NCBI GenBank assembly: GCA_022226955.1
Contig: CP092079.1
Coordinates: forward strand, 3,221,546-3,285,545
Direction: 5' to 3'
Source of the DNA: Nitrospira sp.
Lineage (GTDB): Bacteria; Nitrospirota; Nitrospiria; Nitrospirales; Nitrospiraceae
DNA: 64,000 bases
Shown here: positions 36,884-46,035 of the stretch, in pieces
How the letters are laid out: the number at the start of each line of letters is the position of its first letter
Position numbering within the stretch: the first letter of the stretch is position 1
Notes under the pieces: model-generated
Database searches by the model: none
What the model saw: the letters and a program-made list of their open reading frames with translations, nothing else
What the model was told of the DNA's origin: nothing
Program-made: the position numbers and the translations under genes

Positions 36884-37483
36884 ATGTCAACCGAAACCGC
36901 GGACACGCAAGCCCCTCCGCTCGCCGCCGAGCCATCCACATCGCCATCCCATTTTCCGCCGGCCGGCGACAATACCCAGAACGGCAATCTTGAAAAGATT
37001 CGCGACATTCTTTTCGGCGCACAAGTCCGCGATCACGACCGGCGCTTCTCCGCGCTGGAACAAAACCTTGCCAAGGAGGCCGCCGCGCTCAAAGCCGAAC
37101 TCACGAAACGATTCGACTCGCTTGAAGCCTTTATGCAGCAGGAAGTGGCCATCCTGTCCAGTCGTCTGCAACAGGAACAGCAGGCCCGCGGCGAAGCCAT
37201 GCAACACCTCGTCAGAGACCTCACCAGCCTCGGAGCCGTGGTCGAACGCAACGCCACCAGCCTGGTTGAACAAGCCGGACATTCGGAACGCACCCTACGC
37301 CAGGAAATCCTAGGCCACGTAAGCGCGCTCAACGACATAATCCGTTCCACCCAAGATCAACTCTCAGACTCTCTCAATCGCTCCGTAGCGGATCTGCGGC
37401 ATGCCAAGACGGACCGAACCGCACTCGCGGAACTATTGGCTGAGCTGTCGCACAAACTCCAGCAGGGCTCGCCCACATCCTAA
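36884..37483 (+). CDS. coiled-coil protein of the GTPase module
   Basis: A 199-residue soluble protein. A Pro/Ala-rich N-terminus (1-33) leads to LEKIRDILFGAQVRDHDRRFSALE and then a nearly continuous coiled coil (about 55-190) rich in Glu, Gln, Leu and Arg. No signal or membrane segment is present, so it is cytoplasmic. I recognise the N-terminal block as recurring in small proteins encoded with OmpA-like and Rab-like GTPase genes, but know of no assigned function. AAGGAG precedes the ATG. It is the first gene of a tight same-strand unit. Confidence 0.72.
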   Translation: MSTETADTQAPPLAAEPSTSPSHFPPAGDNTQNGNLEKIRDILFGAQVRDHDRRFSALEQNLAKEAAALKAELTKRFDSLEAFMQQEVAILSSRLQQEQQARGEAMQHLVRDLTSLGAVVERNATSLVEQAGHSERTLRQEILGHVSALNDIIRSTQDQLSDSLNRSVADLRHAKTDRTALAELLAELSHKLQQGSPTS

Positions 37484-37510: not shown

Positions 37511-39298
37511 ATGAATCAACCCAGGTCCAGCAACCAGCCTCCCTCGGCTGATACAACCGCGAGCCCTCAGCTAAAACAAGAATGGGCTGAGCTTCGCACA
37601 CTGTTGCTCGCTCCCGAACAAACCCAGCTGACAGAACTCCGCGATCGTATTGACCGCACCGAGATCGATGCCCGCTCCATCGGCAACGTGCTCGCCGAGG
37701 CCATCGCCTTGCGAGGCAAGCAGGACGAGCGACTGACCGCCGCACTCACCCCTCATGTCCAGACCGCCTTGACGAGCTCCGTACGCCGAACCCCCCATGT
37801 GATCGCCGAAGCCATCACTCCCATCATGGGTCCGGCTATCCGCCAAGCGATCGTCCGCGCGTTGCAAGGGATGATGCAGTCGTTCAATCAGACCATCGAC
37901 CACAGCCTATCCTTCAAAGGCCTTGCCTGGAGAATCGAGGCCTGGCGAACCGGACGCCCCTTCGCCGAGGTCGTCCTGCTGCACACATTGCGGTTTCGCG
38001 TCGAACAGCTCTTTCTCATCCATCGAGACACCGGCCTCCTTCTCCATCACGTCGCATCGGACACCGCCATTATTCACGATCAACAGCTGGTATCCGGCAT
38101 GCTGACGGCCATTCAAACCTTTGTGCAAGACACCTTCAGCACGCAGCGAGGGCAGACGCTCAATACCTTGGAAGTCGGAGAATGCCGGCTCTTGATCGAA
38201 CAAGGCCCCCAGGCCATCCTGGCCTGCGTTGTCAGAGGCACCGCACCAGGATACCTTCGAGCTCAGGTGCAGCAAACACTCGAATCCATTCAGCTCGACT
38301 ACGCCGACGCCTTCGCCGCCTTCGATGGCAATCCTTCAGGCTTCGACGCGACGCACGACCGTCTCATGGGCTGCATGCAGACTCAGTACGACCAGCCCCG
38401 CACAAAAATCTCTCCCATGACCTGGGCCATCCTTGCCCTCATCTTCATTGCCATCGTCTTTTGGGGCTGGACGTCCTATCAAAGCAACCAGCGCTGGCAG
38501 CGCCTGGCGCAGCACATTCGCACCATGCCGGGAATCGTCGTGACGGCGCTCGACCGCGACGGTCAGACAATCACCCTTGAGGGGCTGCGCGATCCACTCG
38601 CAGCGAACCCGGAAGAACTCTTGGTTGAGGCAGGAATCCCCCGTGAGCGGATCAACGCTCGCTGGACTCCGTTCTATTCCCTCGACCCTCAATTCGCCGG
38701 CGAGCGCGCAACCTTGCTCCTCCATCCGCCAGAGACCGCGACACTCCACTTCAATGAGGGCCGCCTCACCGCCAGCGGGGCCGCACAAGAAAACTGGGCG
38801 ACCCACGCCAGACAGGTGGCCGCCTTGCTCCCAGGCGTTCGTGAATATCGCGATGAAGACCTTCGCATCGTCTCGCGCGCGGATCTCATTGCCCAATTGA
38901 ACCGAACTAGCTTCTCCTTCGAGAGCGGCTCCTCCACGCTCTCCGAACAAGAATTAAACAAGGTCGCGCCGGTCAAACAGCTGCTCGAAGACTTGCGCCA
39001 GTCCGCGCGCGCTTCTTCTGGCGAGACAAGTATCGTCGTCGAAGCAATCGGCGATGCCGATCCTGCCGGACCAGAAATCATGAACTTTCTGCTGGCCACC
39101 GCGCGCGCGCATGCCGTCCTCGCCGCCCTTGGAGGAACCACCGCATACCCCCCGCTCACCCTCAGCGCGAGCGTGGAACCAACCTCGCTCACCGGGCAGA
39201 AGCGCGGCAGTACGATGAATACTTCGAACGCGCAACGACGCACCACCCTCCTCGTCACACTCAGGCACGCTCCCAGCCACGCGGACTCCGCGCCATGA
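37511..39298 (+). CDS. one-pass membrane protein with OmpA-like C-terminus
   Basis: A 595-residue protein. About 300 N-terminal residues look soluble and cytoplasmic, including a stretch of amphipathic helices (IAEAITPIMGPAIRQAI) and a mixed alpha/beta part. A single transmembrane helix lies at about 303-324. The rest is periplasmic, with a BON-like segment (IVVTALDRDGQTITLEGLRDPL) and an OmpA-like end in which the peptidoglycan-binding residues appear as VEAIGDADPAG and ARAHAVLAAL, degenerate but recognisable. The topology would connect a cytoplasmic GTPase to the cell wall. Its TGA overlaps the GTPase ATG. Confidence 0.75.
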   Translation: MNQPRSSNQPPSADTTASPQLKQEWAELRTLLLAPEQTQLTELRDRIDRTEIDARSIGNVLAEAIALRGKQDERLTAALTPHVQTALTSSVRRTPHVIAEAITPIMGPAIRQAIVRALQGMMQSFNQTIDHSLSFKGLAWRIEAWRTGRPFAEVVLLHTLRFRVEQLFLIHRDTGLLLHHVASDTAIIHDQQLVSGMLTAIQTFVQDTFSTQRGQTLNTLEVGECRLLIEQGPQAILACVVRGTAPGYLRAQVQQTLESIQLDYADAFAAFDGNPSGFDATHDRLMGCMQTQYDQPRTKISPMTWAILALIFIAIVFWGWTSYQSNQRWQRLAQHIRTMPGIVVTALDRDGQTITLEGLRDPLAANPEELLVEAGIPRERINARWTPFYSLDPQFAGERATLLLHPPETATLHFNEGRLTASGAAQENWATHARQVAALLPGVREYRDEDLRIVSRADLIAQLNRTSFSFESGSSTLSEQELNKVAPVKQLLEDLRQSARASSGETSIVVEAIGDADPAGPEIMNFLLATARAHAVLAALGGTTAYPPLTLSASVEPTSLTGQKRGSTMNTSNAQRRTTLLVTLRHAPSHADSAP

Positions 39299-39795
39299 TT
39301 CAGAAAAAAATCTGTCTGCTCGGTGGATTCGCCGTCGGAAAGACCAGCCTCATCCGCCGTTTCGTCACCGATGCGTTTTCGGAGCAATATCACACGACCA
39401 TCGGCGTCACGATTGAAAAGAAAACCCTCCTCGTCGACGACCGAGACGTGACACTCATGATCTGGGATCTCTATGGAGAAGACGATTTTCAAAAAATGCG
39501 AGAGTCGTATTTGCGAGGCTCATCCGGCTACATTCTCGTCGCTGACGGCATGAGGCGATCGACATTGGATACGGCGGAAGCCCTCCACCAGCTGGCTCAA
39601 TCGACGCTCGGTCCGGTGCCCTTCGTGCTCATCGTGAACAAAGCCGACCAGCGCAAGGAATGGGAAATCGATGAGCCCACCCTCGCGCGGCTGCGAGACA
39701 AGGGATGGCTGGTCTTCACCGGAAGCGCCAAGACCGGCGACGGAGTACCCGAACTCTTTCTGCGGCTTACGCACATCATGTTAGAAGCCGCCTAG
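39295..39795 (+). CDS. Rab/Ras-like small GTPase
   Basis: A 166-residue stand-alone small GTPase remarkably like eukaryotic Rab proteins. The P-loop is GGFAVGKTS (10-18). Switch I has YHTTIGVTIEKK with T35. Switch II has IWDLYGEDDF, where D58 and G61 are kept but the catalytic glutamine position is E62, followed by SYLRGSSGYILVADG. NKAD (115-118) and SAK complete the guanine site. There is no C-terminal prenylation cysteine. Bacterial relatives (MglA, Rup families) regulate polarity and motility; the function here is unknown. Coupled to the membrane protein by a 4-base overlap. Confidence 0.88.
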   Translation: MIQKKICLLGGFAVGKTSLIRRFVTDAFSEQYHTTIGVTIEKKTLLVDDRDVTLMIWDLYGEDDFQKMRESYLRGSSGYILVADGMRRSTLDTAEALHQLAQSTLGPVPFVLIVNKADQRKEWEIDEPTLARLRDKGWLVFTGSAKTGDGVPELFLRLTHIMLEAA

Positions 39796-39813: not shown

Positions 39814-41616
39814 ATGGCGCCATCCAGCTCACCCAACGCTCTGCCTCAGAATATGATGGCGGCCCTCTTTCAACGACTTGGCGCCGCTCTGCTCGAACGG
39901 GTCGGGACGGGACATACATTTCGCCTGATTGGAACGCCGCCATCCTGGTGGGTCGCCACCTTCACAGCGCCGCTGGAATCGCTCATTGACGTCGGAAGCC
40001 TCTCTCCTTTTCTGCAACACTTCCTGGAAGAAAGCGAATCGACGTGGAGGGACAACTCCGACCAAGTACTTCGATCGGGTCCCTGGAGTCATCGCGACCG
40101 TGCATCCGTCCTGCACCAATTCGAAGCCACCGCACTAACCGTGGCGCGCCGTCCACTGCTCCTTATCGAATGCATCGATGAACAGTGCGCCCAATTGCAG
40201 ACCCTCTTACAGCAAGCCCGTGATCAGCGTTTGCAGCATATCGACCAAGTCAAAACCCACGAACGAACCCAGGCATCTCTGACAGGATCTCTGGCCATCA
40301 CCATGCAAGAACGCGACGATGTCCTGGCGCTTCTCCAACAGCTGGATCTAGCCGCCATCGTCACCGATCGACAAGGCCTGGTCACCTTCATCAGCCCGCG
40401 CTGCCTTGCCTGGATCGAACGCGCGGCCACAGCGGTCATCGGCCAGCCATGGGAACAGGGTCTCCCCCTGGAGCCCGCAGACCGCACGCATCTTCGCCGA
40501 ACATGGAACGCGCGCCAGCCGCAACGAGGACGGCAGACCTTGCGCTTGGCAAGCGCCACCCCACGATGGGTCGACTACGAAATCCATGCGGACCCACAAT
40601 CCCCTGAACGGCGCATCATCCTGCTGCAGGATCGCACGGAGGTGCAGCAGTTACGGCAGCAGCTCGATCACCACTCACAATTTCACGACCTGGTTGGACG
40701 CAGCCCGGCCATGTTGCAGATCTATCAACTTGTCCGCGATGTGGCGCGGGTCAACTCCACGGTCCTCATTGAGGGCGAGACAGGAACCGGAAAAGAACTT
40801 ATCGCCAGAGCCATCCATTATTCCAGTTCACGGAAAGACCGGCCCTTTATCGCCGCGAACTGCGCAGGCTTGACGGATTCACTGCTGGGCAGCCAGCTGT
40901 TCGGCCATAAGCGAGGCGCCTTCACCGGCGCCATCGAGGATCATCATGGACTCTTCGAATCGGCTGACGGCGGCACCCTGTTTTTGGATGAAATCGGAGA
41001 CATCCCATCCGCCGTCCAAACCAGCTTGCTCCGAGTCCTCCAAGAAAAAGAAATCACGCGCCTGGGAGAAACTCGCCCACGGAAGGTGAATGTGCGCATC
41101 CTTGCCGCTACTCATCACAATCTCAATGAAGACGTTATTCGCGGCACTTTTCGCGCCGATTTGCTCTATCGCATTCGCGTGGCGCGCATCCACTTGCCGC
41201 CGCTGCGGGATCGGCGAGACGACATTCCCTTGCTCGCCCAGACCATGCTCGCTCAAGTCTGTGCCGCCACGGGAAAAACGATCACGGATCTGCATCCTGA
41301 CAGTCTCCAGCTGCTCATCGCCTACCTTTGGCCCGGCAATGTCCGAGAGCTAAAAAGCGCCGTCGAATTTGCCGTGATCAGCGCCCGCACGACCTGCCTG
41401 ATGCCGGCCGACTTTCCCGAGGAACTGCGCCACTCCCAATATAGCCATCTGCCTCCATCTTTCCAGGAATCGCACAGCACTGAACCGAAAGCGCACCTGC
41501 TTCGAGCGCTCCAGCAAGCACAAGGAAACCGGACGGAAGCCGCGAAGATTCTCGGGGTCAGTCGCGCCACACTCTATCGCCGGCTCCTCGCACATGGCAT
41601 CGACGTCGCCGAATAG
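39814..41616 (+). CDS. PAS-containing sigma54-dependent activator
   Basis: A 600-residue bacterial enhancer-binding protein. The first ~155 residues form a sensor region I do not recognise (FQRLGAALLERVG, FRLIGTPPSWWVATF). A coiled coil and a PAS-like domain follow (about 165-285, LDLAAIVTDRQGLVTFIS). The AAA+ domain has Walker A GETGTGKE (321-328), the sigma54-contacting loop GAFTGA (368-373) and FLDEIGD. A Fis-type helix-turn-helix ends the protein (NRTEAAKILGVSRATLYRRL). All motifs needed to activate sigma54 are intact. It starts 18 bases after the GTPase gene and probably acts on the promoter just downstream. Confidence 0.93.
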   Translation: MAPSSSPNALPQNMMAALFQRLGAALLERVGTGHTFRLIGTPPSWWVATFTAPLESLIDVGSLSPFLQHFLEESESTWRDNSDQVLRSGPWSHRDRASVLHQFEATALTVARRPLLLIECIDEQCAQLQTLLQQARDQRLQHIDQVKTHERTQASLTGSLAITMQERDDVLALLQQLDLAAIVTDRQGLVTFISPRCLAWIERAATAVIGQPWEQGLPLEPADRTHLRRTWNARQPQRGRQTLRLASATPRWVDYEIHADPQSPERRIILLQDRTEVQQLRQQLDHHSQFHDLVGRSPAMLQIYQLVRDVARVNSTVLIEGETGTGKELIARAIHYSSSRKDRPFIAANCAGLTDSLLGSQLFGHKRGAFTGAIEDHHGLFESADGGTLFLDEIGDIPSAVQTSLLRVLQEKEITRLGETRPRKVNVRILAATHHNLNEDVIRGTFRADLLYRIRVARIHLPPLRDRRDDIPLLAQTMLAQVCAATGKTITDLHPDSLQLLIAYLWPGNVRELKSAVEFAVISARTTCLMPADFPEELRHSQYSHLPPSFQESHSTEPKAHLLRALQQAQGNRTEAAKILGVSRATLYRRLLAHGIDVAE

Positions 41617-41650
41617 CCTCGTTCCAAACCCCTCATGTCTGCGCCTATGA

Positions 41651-41704
41651 TGAGACAGGCGCCGTGAGACAGCCCTGTCTCCTGCGACAGCGGCACTGAG
41701 ACAG
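41651..41704. promoter_or_regulatory. TGAGACAG repeats, candidate activator binding sites
   Basis: Three copies of TGAGACAG (41651-41658, 41665-41672, 41697-41704). The second is followed by its mirror image, giving a 7-2-7 inverted repeat GAGACAG-CC-CTGTCTC (41666-41681). They lie about 60-110 bases upstream of a sigma54-type promoter, a suitable place for enhancer binding by the activator encoded immediately upstream. A further GAGACAG occurs at 41794-41800. Confidence 0.55.
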
Positions 41705-41761
41705 AGTGACCGCAGCGCGCAGAAAGCTCACGCCATTCAAACTGAATATCTCCGCAAGCCG

Positions 41762-41777
41762 TGGCACAAACCTTGAT
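41762..41777 (+). promoter_or_regulatory. sigma54-type (-24/-12) promoter
   Basis: TGGCAC-AAACC-TTGAT: the GG pair of the -24 element (41763-41764) is exactly 10 bases from the GA at -12 (41775-41776), where the consensus is GC. It differs from TGGCAC-N5-TTGCA mainly at that cytosine. It lies 65 bases before the response-regulator start and directly after a sigma54 activator gene. Confidence 0.6.
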
Positions 41778-41841
41778 CTACCTCTCGGACCTAGAGACAG
41801 ACCTCGTTTGAACAAACCGTCTGCGTGCAACAGGACTCCCA

Positions 41842-42558
41842 TTGCTTAGGCCACGATCCACCACATCGCCACCGATTCGAGTCGTTCCTGTCGATGATTC
41901 GGTATTCGCGCGAGAAGGAATCAGGGCCATCCTCACGTCGGATCGCGGCATTCAGGTGGTTGGCGAAGCCGACAGCAGGGCGCGCGCCATTGAAGAAGTC
42001 CATCGCACCAAACCCGATGTCGTGATTATGGATATGCGCTTACCCGATGGCACCGGGTACGACTCCTGTCGAGACATCTTGTCGGCTTTTCCGCGTACGC
42101 GAATTCTGTTCTTCTCGGCCTACAGCGACTACAATGCTCTCTATGAGGCCGTCATGGCAGGGGGGCATGGGTATCTGACCAAAGATACCGAGGCCAAAGA
42201 CCTCCTCCGCGCAATCAAGACGATTGCCGCAGGGCAATCACTTTTTGAGCCGAACGAGGCGAACCACAATCTTTCCCGGAAAGAGGACCACACCACGAAT
42301 GCCCCGGCGGCTCTCCCGCCGATCCTCTCGCGAATCGATCTAACACTCCTCTCGTTACTGGCTAAGGGAGCCACCAACAAGGCCATCGCCGTCGTTCTCA
42401 AGAAAGAGCCGCACACCATCGTCACACTGCAGGCGGCCCTCTATAAAAAACTGCGCGTCACGCGGCGGGCCCAAGCGGTTCACCATTTCATCACGCAACT
42501 CAGCCAGCATTACCCCCCTCTCGACATCACCCCCATCTCCGCACGTGGGAAAGGATAG
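41842..42558 (+). CDS. NarL/LuxR-type response regulator
   Basis: A 238-residue response regulator. The receiver has the acidic pair in VVPVDDS, the phosphoacceptor aspartate in VVIMDMRLPDG, the serine in FFSAYSD and the lysine in YLTKDTE, so it can be phosphorylated. The C-terminal domain is a recognisable but divergent LuxR-type helix-turn-helix (LLSLLAKGATNKAIAVVLKKEPHTIV ... LYKKLRVTRRAQAVHHF). The only plausible start is TTG at 41842 with AGGA upstream. No histidine kinase is adjacent. It is preceded by a sigma54-type promoter, so its expression is probably controlled by the upstream activator. Confidence 0.85.
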   Translation: MLRPRSTTSPPIRVVPVDDSVFAREGIRAILTSDRGIQVVGEADSRARAIEEVHRTKPDVVIMDMRLPDGTGYDSCRDILSAFPRTRILFFSAYSDYNALYEAVMAGGHGYLTKDTEAKDLLRAIKTIAAGQSLFEPNEANHNLSRKEDHTTNAPAALPPILSRIDLTLLSLLAKGATNKAIAVVLKKEPHTIVTLQAALYKKLRVTRRAQAVHHFITQLSQHYPPLDITPISARGKG

Positions 42559-42562
42559 TCCT

Positions 42563-42940
42563 ATGCTTCCCAAGGGCCTCCTCGTTGTCGATCCACACAA
42601 TCAGACTTTTCTACTGGTCCCAGAAAAAGATCTAGAGACCACTGGCTACACCCTCTCCGTGCTCCAGCTCCAGCAAGATCAGTGGGTCCGCCTGCAACCC
42701 GCCTCTTCACGAAAACTTCGCGAAAGCATGTTGGGAGCCTTGCTCGAATTTTTCGGCAATCTCTGCCGGACTCTGAATGACAGTGACGATCGTGCGCACC
42801 AGATCAAACGTCTCGCCCCGAAGAGCGCGCCACCTGCAATCAACCAACACCCTCGCATCCCCGCCGCTCAGGGAAGGCGGCTCGGCCGGCAACCCGGCAA
42901 GACCGTTTCAAAACAATCGCGCCCCCTTGGGGCAACATGA
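42563..42940 (+). CDS. small hypothetical protein
   Basis: A 125-residue protein starting MLPKGLLVVDPHNQTFLLVPEKDLETTGYTL, with a polar, basic tail (QGRRLGRQPGKTVSKQ). The ATG at 42563 is 4 bases after the response-regulator stop with AAGGA upstream, so both are co-transcribed. No signal peptide, membrane segment or known domain is seen. Confidence 0.6.
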   Translation: MLPKGLLVVDPHNQTFLLVPEKDLETTGYTLSVLQLQQDQWVRLQPASSRKLRESMLGALLEFFGNLCRTLNDSDDRAHQIKRLAPKSAPPAINQHPRIPAAQGRRLGRQPGKTVSKQSRPLGAT

Positions 42941-43089: not shown

Positions 43090-43132
43090 AGACAAAATGC
43101 ACGATTTGGCCAGTCAGTCTTAGTGAAATTCA

Positions 43133-43161
43133 AACACCGCAGCGCCGCAATACGCGGTGTT
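43133..43161 (+). promoter_or_regulatory. leader hairpin
   Basis: AACACCGC (43133-43140) pairs perfectly with GCGGTGTT (43154-43161) over a 13-base loop, followed by TTCC. It sits in the 5' leader of the DUF481 gene, about 34 bases before its start, and could be an attenuator or stabilising element, or the terminator of the preceding operon. Confidence 0.45.
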
Positions 43162-43194
43162 TTCCATATACCCAGAAATACGAGAGGGGAAAAG

Positions 43195-44280
43195 ATGAAG
43201 AACCTGTTTGCCATGCTGACGCTCTGTACCGCCATACTCTATGGCGGCATGGCGGCTTTTGCAGCCGATGCGCCCGCGCTTCCGCTCGACGTTGTGACCC
43301 TCAAGAACGGCAGCATGATCTACGGAGAAGTCCTCGAGATGGCAGACGGCATCCTCGTCATGAAGACGCCATCCAGCCCAGACAATGTCATTAAGGTGAA
43401 GTGGAGCGACGTCGCCAAACTCGACGTCAATCATCCGATCCCGTTTCACCTCAAAGAAGGCAGCACCATTGTCGGAACCGCGACAGCCGGACCCGACGGC
43501 AACCTGAACATTCAATCTGAACCGCTGAAAGGCTCACTCACCGTTCCGCTGGATACCATCGGATCCGTGAACCCCCTGGTGCAACCTCCCGTGATTTACA
43601 CGGGCAGCATCACCGGCGCCTACTCCCAGACTACCGGAAACAGCCATCTCAAAAACGCCAGCTTACTGGGAGACTTCGTCGCCCGCAGCGAGCAGCTCCG
43701 GCTCTCGATCAATGGCCGGTACGTCTACGGAGACAATGCCAACACCCTCAGCGCCCGGAATGCTCGTGGGACGATCAAGCTGGACTTCTTCGTCACGAAA
43801 CGCTTTTACTGGTTTGCCTCCGCCTACTTCGAAAACGATCGTTTCCAAGATCTCAAGATGCGGACAGCCCTCGCGTCCGGCCCCGGCTATCAATTCATCG
43901 ATCGAGGAGACTTCAGCGGCATTTTCAAAGACATGACGTTCTATACGGAAACCGGTGTGGCCTTTTTCAATGAAGACTTCCGCGTCGCGAACGACCAGTC
44001 GAGTCTGCGTGCCCGCGTTTCGATGAAATGGAACTGGCCGCTCTTCGACGATCGCATCACGTTCTACCATTTCAACGAATTTTACCCCTCGATGGAAAAC
44101 GCCTCGAACTACTTCCTCACCATGGACAACGGGGTCCGATTCAAAATCTGGGAAGGATTCGTCAGCGGGTTTCAAGTGACGACACGGTACAATAGCCGGC
44201 CGGCGCCGGGCACCGGCGACACCGACAACCTGTATCTCTTCACCCTCGGATACAGTTTCGATACAACCAGAAAACGATAG
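43195..44280 (+). CDS. DUF481 outer-membrane protein
   Basis: A 361-residue exported protein. A signal peptide (MKNLFAMLTLCTAILYGGMAAFA) is followed by a small beta-rich domain (VTLKNGSMIYGEVLEMADGILVMKT), seen as an SH3/Sm-like module ahead of DUF481 domains. A DUF481 beta-barrel of alternating strands ends in an aromatic/basic strand (LYLFTLGYSFDTTRKR). DUF481 proteins are salt- or stress-induced outer-membrane barrels of unclear function (YdiY in E. coli). The start at 43195 follows GAGGGGA; the longer frame has no support. Confidence 0.87.
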   Translation: MKNLFAMLTLCTAILYGGMAAFAADAPALPLDVVTLKNGSMIYGEVLEMADGILVMKTPSSPDNVIKVKWSDVAKLDVNHPIPFHLKEGSTIVGTATAGPDGNLNIQSEPLKGSLTVPLDTIGSVNPLVQPPVIYTGSITGAYSQTTGNSHLKNASLLGDFVARSEQLRLSINGRYVYGDNANTLSARNARGTIKLDFFVTKRFYWFASAYFENDRFQDLKMRTALASGPGYQFIDRGDFSGIFKDMTFYTETGVAFFNEDFRVANDQSSLRARVSMKWNWPLFDDRITFYHFNEFYPSMENASNYFLTMDNGVRFKIWEGFVSGFQVTTRYNSRPAPGTGDTDNLYLFTLGYSFDTTRKR

Positions 44281-44332: not shown

Positions 44333-44746
44333 ATGTTAAAAGAATTTAAAGACTTTGCCATGAAGGGCAATGTCATGGATATGGCTATCGGTGTCATCAT
44401 CGGTGGCGCATTTGGGAAAATCGTCTCATCGCTCGTCAGCGATGTGCTGATGCCCCCCCTGGGCTTATTGATGGGCAAGGTGGACTTCTCCAGCCTGTTC
44501 ATCAATTTATCCGGAACGCCCCAGCCCTCGCTGACCGCAGCCAAAGCGGCTGGAGCCCCGACGATCAACTACGGGGTGTTTCTACAAGCCACCTTCGACT
44601 TCATCATCCTCGCCTTCGTCATCTTCCTGCTGGTGAAGCAAATGAACCGTTTCAAAAAAGAAGCTCCACCGGCTCCGCCGGCCGGGCCGACAAACGAGGA
44701 GAAGCTCTTGATGGAAATCAGGGATGCGCTCAAAGGGCGGCAGTAA
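44333..44746 (+). CDS. mscL: large-conductance mechanosensitive channel
   Basis: A 137-residue MscL. The conserved N-terminus [35 protein letters not shown] is present, with two transmembrane helices (about 15-45 and 77-100) and a C-terminal helix. It opens under membrane tension on hypo-osmotic shock to release solutes. AGGAGGA precedes the ATG. Next to a DUF481 protein and an OmpA lipoprotein, it fits an envelope/osmotic context. Confidence 0.96.
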
Positions 44747-44814: not shown

Positions 44815-46035
44815 ATGACACGATACAAATCCCCCCTTCTGGTCCTAAGCCTCCTGGCCATCACCGGATGTTCATCTTGGGAACCGATGTGCCCGGACAA
44901 CGGATTCAAATACCGCATCTGCCCTCAAGGCACCGTCCGGAATGCATCGACAGACTATGCCGCCCGCCTCGCCGCCGCCGAACAAGAACGGCAGCGTCTT
45001 GCTGACGAACTCGCCGCGGCAAAGAAAGAAAACGGCGCCCTCAGCGACCGTGTGAAGGCGCTTGAAAGCCAGCTCGCCGACCGCGACCGGGAGTTGGCTG
45101 CCCTTCGCTCAAGCGCTGGAGACTCCTCAAGGCTCGCCAGCCAGCTCTCCTCCGCACAAGGCGACCTCAATCAATCGAATGCCCGCACGGCCGAGCTTGA
45201 ACGTCAGCTCGCCGCCGCCCAGTCGGCCGCAAGTGGCGATAAGGACAAACTGGCTGCACTACAAGCCGGAGCCAGCGATAAAGACCTGCTGGCCTCGGAC
45301 CTGGCCGCAGCCAAACAACGCAACACAGACCTCGCCACGCAACTCGCCGGCCTTCAAGCCGGAGCCGGCGATAAAGACCAGCTGGCCTCGGACCTGGCCG
45401 CAGCCAAACAACGCAACGCAGACCTCGCCGCGCAGCTCGCCACCATGGGCGGGGCCGCAGGCGACAAAGAAAAAATCGCCTCTGAACTGGCCGCCAGCAA
45501 ACAACGCGTCGCAGAACTCGAAAAAATGTTGGCGGATCGCGACAAAGAACTCGCAGGCCTCCGCGGCGACCTGTCCGCTGAAATGGCCAAATTGAAAGAA
45601 GCGCAGCGCGGCTTGCTCCGTGCGCTGAGGCCGCAGATCGACAAGCAGGCCATTGCCGTCGATCTGAATAACGAGCGCTTGCTCATCAACCTGGCATCAG
45701 GCTATCTGTTCGGCTCGGGAGAAGATGAGCTGAAACCGGCCGGCGCCGATGCGCTGAAGCAGGTCGGAGCGATCTTGAAGGATTATCCTGAGTACAAAGT
45801 TGCCGTCGATGGCCATACCGACAACCGGCCAATCCGCAGCGCATTGAAAAAGAAATTCCCGACCAACCAAGAACTCTCTGAAGCGCGCGCGGCCAACGCG
45901 GCCAAAGCCCTGACGGAAGGCGGCCTGGGCGCGGCCACGACACACGGCTACGCCGACACCAGGCCAGCAGCTCCAAACACGACCGACGCAGGCCGGGCGA
46001 AAAATCGCCGGGTCGAAATCCGCGTTACCAAGTAA
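44815..46035 (+). CDS. OmpA-family lipoprotein with repeated coiled coil
   Basis: A 406-residue lipoprotein. The signal ends LLAITGC (lipobox cysteine about 19). A long coiled coil (about 48-270) contains three 31-residue repeats (starting LQAGASDKD, LQAGAGDKD, MGGAAGDKE). The C-terminal OmpA domain is well conserved: YLFGSGEDELKPAGADALKQVG, VDGHTDNRPI and NAAKALTEGGL with the downstream NRRVEIRV. It would span from the outer membrane to peptidoglycan, with the coiled coil as a spacer. A strong terminator follows. Confidence 0.9.
   Translation: MTRYKSPLLVLSLLAITGCSSWEPMCPDNGFKYRICPQGTVRNASTDYAARLAAAEQERQRLADELAAAKKENGALSDRVKALESQLADRDRELAALRSSAGDSSRLASQLSSAQGDLNQSNARTAELERQLAAAQSAASGDKDKLAALQAGASDKDLLASDLAAAKQRNTDLATQLAGLQAGAGDKDQLASDLAAAKQRNADLAAQLATMGGAAGDKEKIASELAASKQRVAELEKMLADRDKELAGLRGDLSAEMAKLKEAQRGLLRALRPQIDKQAIAVDLNNERLLINLASGYLFGSGEDELKPAGADALKQVGAILKDYPEYKVAVDGHTDNRPIRSALKKKFPTNQELSEARAANAAKALTEGGLGAATTHGYADTRPAAPNTTDAGRAKNRRVEIRVTK
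45259..45537 (+). repeat. 93-bp in-frame tandem repeats
   Basis: Three 93-bp units in the OmpA lipoprotein gene: 45259-45351 and 45352-45444 are nearly identical at DNA level, while 45445-45537 is degenerate. Each encodes 31 residues of coiled coil. The closeness of the first two suggests a recent duplication, and copy number may vary between strains, changing spacer length. Confidence 0.85.

Follow-up and report, generated by a model that had tools for sequence, protein, structure and literature searches.

The intergenic region described here, from a nitrite-oxidising Nitrospira, most likely represents an upstream activator sequence coupled to a sigma54 promoter and driven by the enhancer-binding protein (EBP) encoded directly beside it, which in turn appears to serve a little-studied Ras-like GTPase pathway of the Rup type. 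The region lies in the window, by which we mean the whole stretch of 64,000 nucleotides that was analysed. The genome consists of one contig of 3.6 Mb, and all genome-wide counts given below are pattern searches.

Architecture of the control region

The original prediction placed three copies of TGAGACAG and a 7-2-7 inverted repeat just behind an activator gene. The activator gene does end there, with its stop at 41616 and the first heptamer at 41651. Exact copies of TGAGACAG were found on the + strand at 41651, 41665 and 41697, and the inverted repeat, GAGACAG-CC-CTGTCTC, occupies 41666-41681. Two details of the array composition had to be revised. The final G of TGAGACAG is not conserved, leaving TGAGACA as the heptamer core, and an imperfect dyad, TGTCTCCTGCGACA, had been overlooked at 41676-41689. 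The array accordingly comprises five half sites: TGAGACA heptamers at 41651..41657 (half site 1), 41665..41671 (half site 2) and 41697..41703 (half site 5), all on the + strand, and the dyad at 41676..41689, which contributes half sites 3 and 4. When one mismatch is allowed, the 148 bp that separate the activator stop from the promoter box contain five heptamers; across 200 base shuffles the number averaged 0.30 and did not exceed 3.

The predicted TGGCAC-N5-TTGAT box with GG-N10 spacing was likewise recovered as a sigma54-type -24/-12 promoter, TGGCACAAACCTTGAT, at 41762..41777 on the + strand. Its end is separated by 64 bases from the TTG (41842) at which the response regulator (RR) gene starts. 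Exact matches of the TGGCACAAACCTTGAT type occur once in the whole window while matches with two mismatches stand at chance level, and the pattern TGGCAC-N5-TTGMW has four occurrences genome-wide. The box reads GG-N10-GA; its spacing is canonical, but its -12 element is GA where the canonical element is GC. All the boxes recovered from related loci likewise deviate, with GT or GA at -12. The genome contains rpoN, and transcription from this promoter would start near 41788. A further element, AGAGACAG, lies at 41792..41799 (+ strand), just inside this putative transcript, with 3 of 8 positions invariant among the close genomes; it could be a feedback site.

Conservation of the array and promoter

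The intergenic regions of eight genomes, the window included, that closely share both the activator and the RR were aligned. Across the five heptamers 30 of 35 positions are invariant (5/7 in half site 1, 7/7 in half site 2, 12/14 in the dyad and 6/7 in half site 5), compared to about 25% in the neighbouring spacers (2/7, 0/4 and 2/7) and 14/55 in the stretch between array and box. In the box itself 13 of 16 positions are invariant. Conservation of heptamers and box above that of the spacers defines the footprint of two functional elements, with TGTCTCCTGCGACA belonging to the array.

More distant relatives retain the same design in altered form. The N-terminal half of the activator is matched in 37 of 79 Nitrospira genomes, mostly at 33-39% identity, and intergenic DNA was compared for those loci in readable orientation. 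In these loci the sequence 3′ of the activator contains TGTCTCA, the perfect palindrome TGTCTCATGAGACA, of which TGTCTCCTGCGACA is the counterpart in the window, and additional half sites, followed by TGGCA[C/T]-N5-TTG[T/A]. The start of the palindrome lies 110-113 bp ahead of the box, and the sites next to the palindrome are positioned about 20-21 bp to either side, which corresponds to two helical turns; the array spacing in the window is 14-18-14, as against about 21-20 bp in the distant arrays. The regular expression used for the promoter matches at a density of about 0.007 per 260 bases, yet nearly all loci have a box after the array.

The arrangement extends beyond the genus. In a sister genus (g12) a TGTCTCG-type site is present, with TGGCA[C/T]-N5-TTGA after it in three of five loci. 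Outside the family, two genomes (G055 and G313) have TGAAACA/TGAGACA/TGTTTCA-like sites followed by TGGCA[C/T]-N5-TTGTT. Retention of the repeat at orthologous loci, on which the original prediction had been staked, is thus observed: repeat and promoter are present in the eight close genomes and recur, in modified form, throughout the genus and family. Exceptions were found at individual loci. Locus L197 shows neither array nor box in the stretch examined, L122 has no box detectable by the regular expression and L202 has one only further away. At L124 (genome G034) the activator is followed by a partial second Fis helix-turn-helix (HTH) and degraded heptamers; neither the RR nor the small gene that accompanies it elsewhere was found at this locus.

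A Rup GTPase cassette upstream of the promoter

The original prediction made no mention of the genes that precede the activator, all of which are on the + strand. The first (36884..37483) encodes a coiled-coil type protein with a weak Pfam Apolipoprotein match and is present in nearly all related loci. The second (37511..39298), also conserved in synteny, encodes a DUF protein with one transmembrane (TM) helix, predicted from a peak at about residue 300, and a weak OmpA match at the C-terminus (E 0.016). The third (39295..39795) encodes a Ras-like small GTPase of the Rup type (Pfam Ras, 5.9e-30), whose G3 motif is DLYGED, so that the Ras Gln is missing. The fourth (39814..41616) is the EBP gene. 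Its product consists of an N-domain containing Q133, a weak PAS-like match over residues 175-277, a Sigma54_activat AAA+ domain with the GAFTGA loop and a Fis HTH at 559-591, as identified by Pfam and sequence. Walker A and GAFTGA are kept in related activators, with GSFTGA in two of them. A structure prediction of the N-domain built from five close sequences gave a mean pLDDT of 41 and was left unused.

This gene order matches a described system. The Rup family was defined by Wuichet and Sogaard-Andersen (2014; PMC4316618), and no member had been characterised at the time. According to that paper, the Group 1 neighbourhood consists of a coiled-coil protein, to which the product of 36884..37483 corresponds, a DUF-TM-OmpA protein, a GTPase lacking the G3 Gln, and an output gene with an N-terminal region that carries an invariant Gln. 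Outputs are typically diguanylate cyclases/phosphodiesterases or histidine kinases, and a sigma54 activator is not mentioned in the section consulted; because the wording is 'typically', such an output marks a variant rather than an exclusion. Judged by gene content, the EBP is probably the output component of a Group 1 Rup cassette.

It is conceivable, though unlikely, that the sigma54 circuit is real while the EBP is an ordinary PAS one-component activator to which the Rup GTPase is functionally unrelated. The weak PAS match at residues 175-277 would suit such a protein. Against it, the order of the first four genes is kept across families of the taxonomic order. Throughout the genus, the locus reads coiled coil, TM-OmpA-like protein, GTPase, activator, array and promoter, RR and small protein, DUF481, MscL and OmpA. 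Moreover, several Nitrospira (loci L190, L191 and L192) possess a second, paralogous Rup block, in which a short stand-alone protein or a fused stretch after the GTPase aligns with the EBP N-domain, Gln included. Q133 itself is invariant in 22 of 22 EBPs and is among the few fully conserved columns once the stand-alone partners are added to the alignment. These observations favour the EBP as the partner of its GTPase.

Rup-like GTPases with other fourth genes were also encountered: the gene after the GTPase encodes an adenylate/guanylate cyclase on Mesorhizobium and Rhizobium plasmids (L204, L205) and a long kinase-like protein on a plasmid of Nostoc. A QxAxExxL stretch can be recognised by eye in these cyclase and kinase-like genes (QKAYEMTL, QGANEANL), and its counterparts in the activators, likewise matched by eye, are QQARDQRL and QRARERML.

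Proposed assignment of the array to the activator

The array is best read as the predicted enhancer of the adjacent EBP. The Fis recognition helix, SRAT[FL]YRRL, is almost constant across related activators. The array motif tracks the nearly invariant Fis HTH irrespective of the gene that lies downstream, and this points to the activator, and not the RR, as the probable binder.

The downstream gene encodes a NarL/LuxR-type RR, and NarL-type regulators bind 7-2-7 inverted heptamers, so that the 7-2-7 repeat could in principle be an autoregulatory site of the RR itself. We consider this improbable given the behaviour of both partners in relatives. Distant relatives do not keep the 7-2-7 spacing, their dyad being 7-0-7, and joint conservation of 7-2-7 heptamers with the regulator, as would characterise a NarL-type site, is not what was found. 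The RRs differ between loci (about 31% identity, with helix TLQAALYKKL versus TRLQRIYKRL) whereas the array motif stays, and in some loci the RR is one gene further off or gives way to a receiver-less LuxR protein of 105 aa.

Binding by another EBP has to be considered since the genome contains many EBP domains (27 Sigma54_activat matches, about 25 domains) and their Fis helices are often alike. Assignment of the array to one of these roughly 25 proteins, or to a global regulator, is nonetheless slightly less probable again than RR autoregulation. No second array was found by pattern search of the genome, and nowhere else in it do two copies of TGAGACAG lie within 30 bp. Across the genus, the perfect palindrome is confined to one locus per genome: of the 18 genomes that contain TGTCTCATGAGACA, 17 have it behind this activator and the 18th (G092) in a relic of the locus. 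Nitrospira genomes without the cassette are also without TGTCTCATGAGACA, with the exception of this one relic. In the relic (L207, C170 about 4373) the array precedes DUF481-MscL and the GTPase-activator block has been lost.

Even less credible is that the inverted repeats function at the RNA level, terminating or attenuating transcription behind the activator gene: an inverted repeat of 7 bp with a loop of 2 bases does lie between the two genes, but 41650-41700 has neither a T-run nor a terminator call, and the arrays of relatives mix direct and inverted heptamers with a zero-base loop in the dyad and a constant distance to the box. Both the terminator and the NarL-site readings were rejected on array geometry in relatives, missing terminator signal and RR turnover.

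With the adjacent EBP as the predicted binder, a single array in the genome makes the circuit look local. The search for further arrays had been suggested together with the claim of a dedicated local circuit, and its outcome is in keeping with that claim. On sequence grounds, the local circuit is well supported by the locus specificity of the palindrome and by the array tracking the Fis HTH of the activator.

Genes downstream of the promoter

All genes that follow the promoter are on the + strand. The RR gene (41842..42558) has a TTG start with AGGA upstream and encodes a receiver and an atypical GerE domain. It is followed by an orphan small protein (42545..42940) without a Pfam or NCBIfam match, a DUF481 protein identified by Pfam (43123..44280), an MscL mechanosensitive channel (44333..44746) and a coiled-coil OmpA-domain protein (44815..46035); the last three are conserved downstream members of the locus by synteny.

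The identity of the first gene varies. It is the RR in the clade of the window and apparently also at L115, a relative of the small protein, followed by the RR, in most distant loci, and in g12 the receiver-less LuxR/GerE protein of 105 aa. The proposed circuit from activator to RR can thus be retained, on sequence grounds, as far as the local activator and promoter are concerned; the RR as its target is specific to certain lineages. In the RRs of the distant loci (L110-L123) Glu takes the place of the phospho-acceptor Asp (MLEARVG / LVEVQVG), and the window clade keeps the Asp (MDMRLPDG). Both groups have an atypical GerE recognition helix.

Discussion

The following mechanism would account for the locus. 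The TM-OmpA and coiled-coil proteins may sense the state of the envelope, which the GTPase would relay to the EBP. Contact of the GTPase with the N-domain, involving the invariant Q133, would gate the AAA+ domain and de-repress the activator. The EBP is then expected to bind the TGAGACA half sites through its Fis HTH and to oligomerise, with DNA looping presumably bringing it to the sigma54-RNA polymerase at 41762-41777. The AAA+/GAFTGA machine would open the promoter for transcription from about 41788, driving the RR and the small protein and perhaps DUF481-MscL-OmpA. In a more specific version, which we put forward tentatively as somewhat less than an even chance, the GTPase directly gates the sigma54 activator and the N-domain supplies the missing catalytic Gln in trans, coupling GTP hydrolysis to one dedicated promoter.

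If true, this would make the genetic output of a Rup GTPase pathway readable for the first time. The conserved single target promoter offers a simple reporter, making both the signal of the cassette and the control of the activator by the GTPase directly testable. The locus also provides a motif-level sigma54 circuit for Nitrospira, for which our literature search returned no dedicated study. Neither later work on Rup-family GTPases nor a sigma54-activator output of such a GTPase with a defined target promoter was found in the literature searched. None of the papers searched contains the exact TGTCTCATGAGACA, and TGTCTC and GAGACA are both absent from the main text of the Desulfovibrio sigma54 regulome paper.

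Compared to known systems, the locus combines features of three. With NarL/NarP 7-2-7 sites it shares inverted heptamers ahead of the gene for a NarL-type regulator; here, however, geometry and sequence follow the EBP and not the regulator. Like the Group 1 Rup systems of PMC4316618, it has the coiled-coil gene, the DUF-TM-OmpA gene, the GTPase without G3 Gln and a fourth gene with an invariant Gln, but that fourth gene is a sigma54 activator and its DNA target can be read. Like the NtrC, PspF and NorR circuits, it has an AAA+ protein with GAFTGA, a Fis HTH, an array of half sites, a -24/-12 box and an adjacent target. It departs from that type in the GA or GT at -12, in an EBP that has no receiver domain and instead carries a Rup-partner N-domain, and in having a single site per genome.
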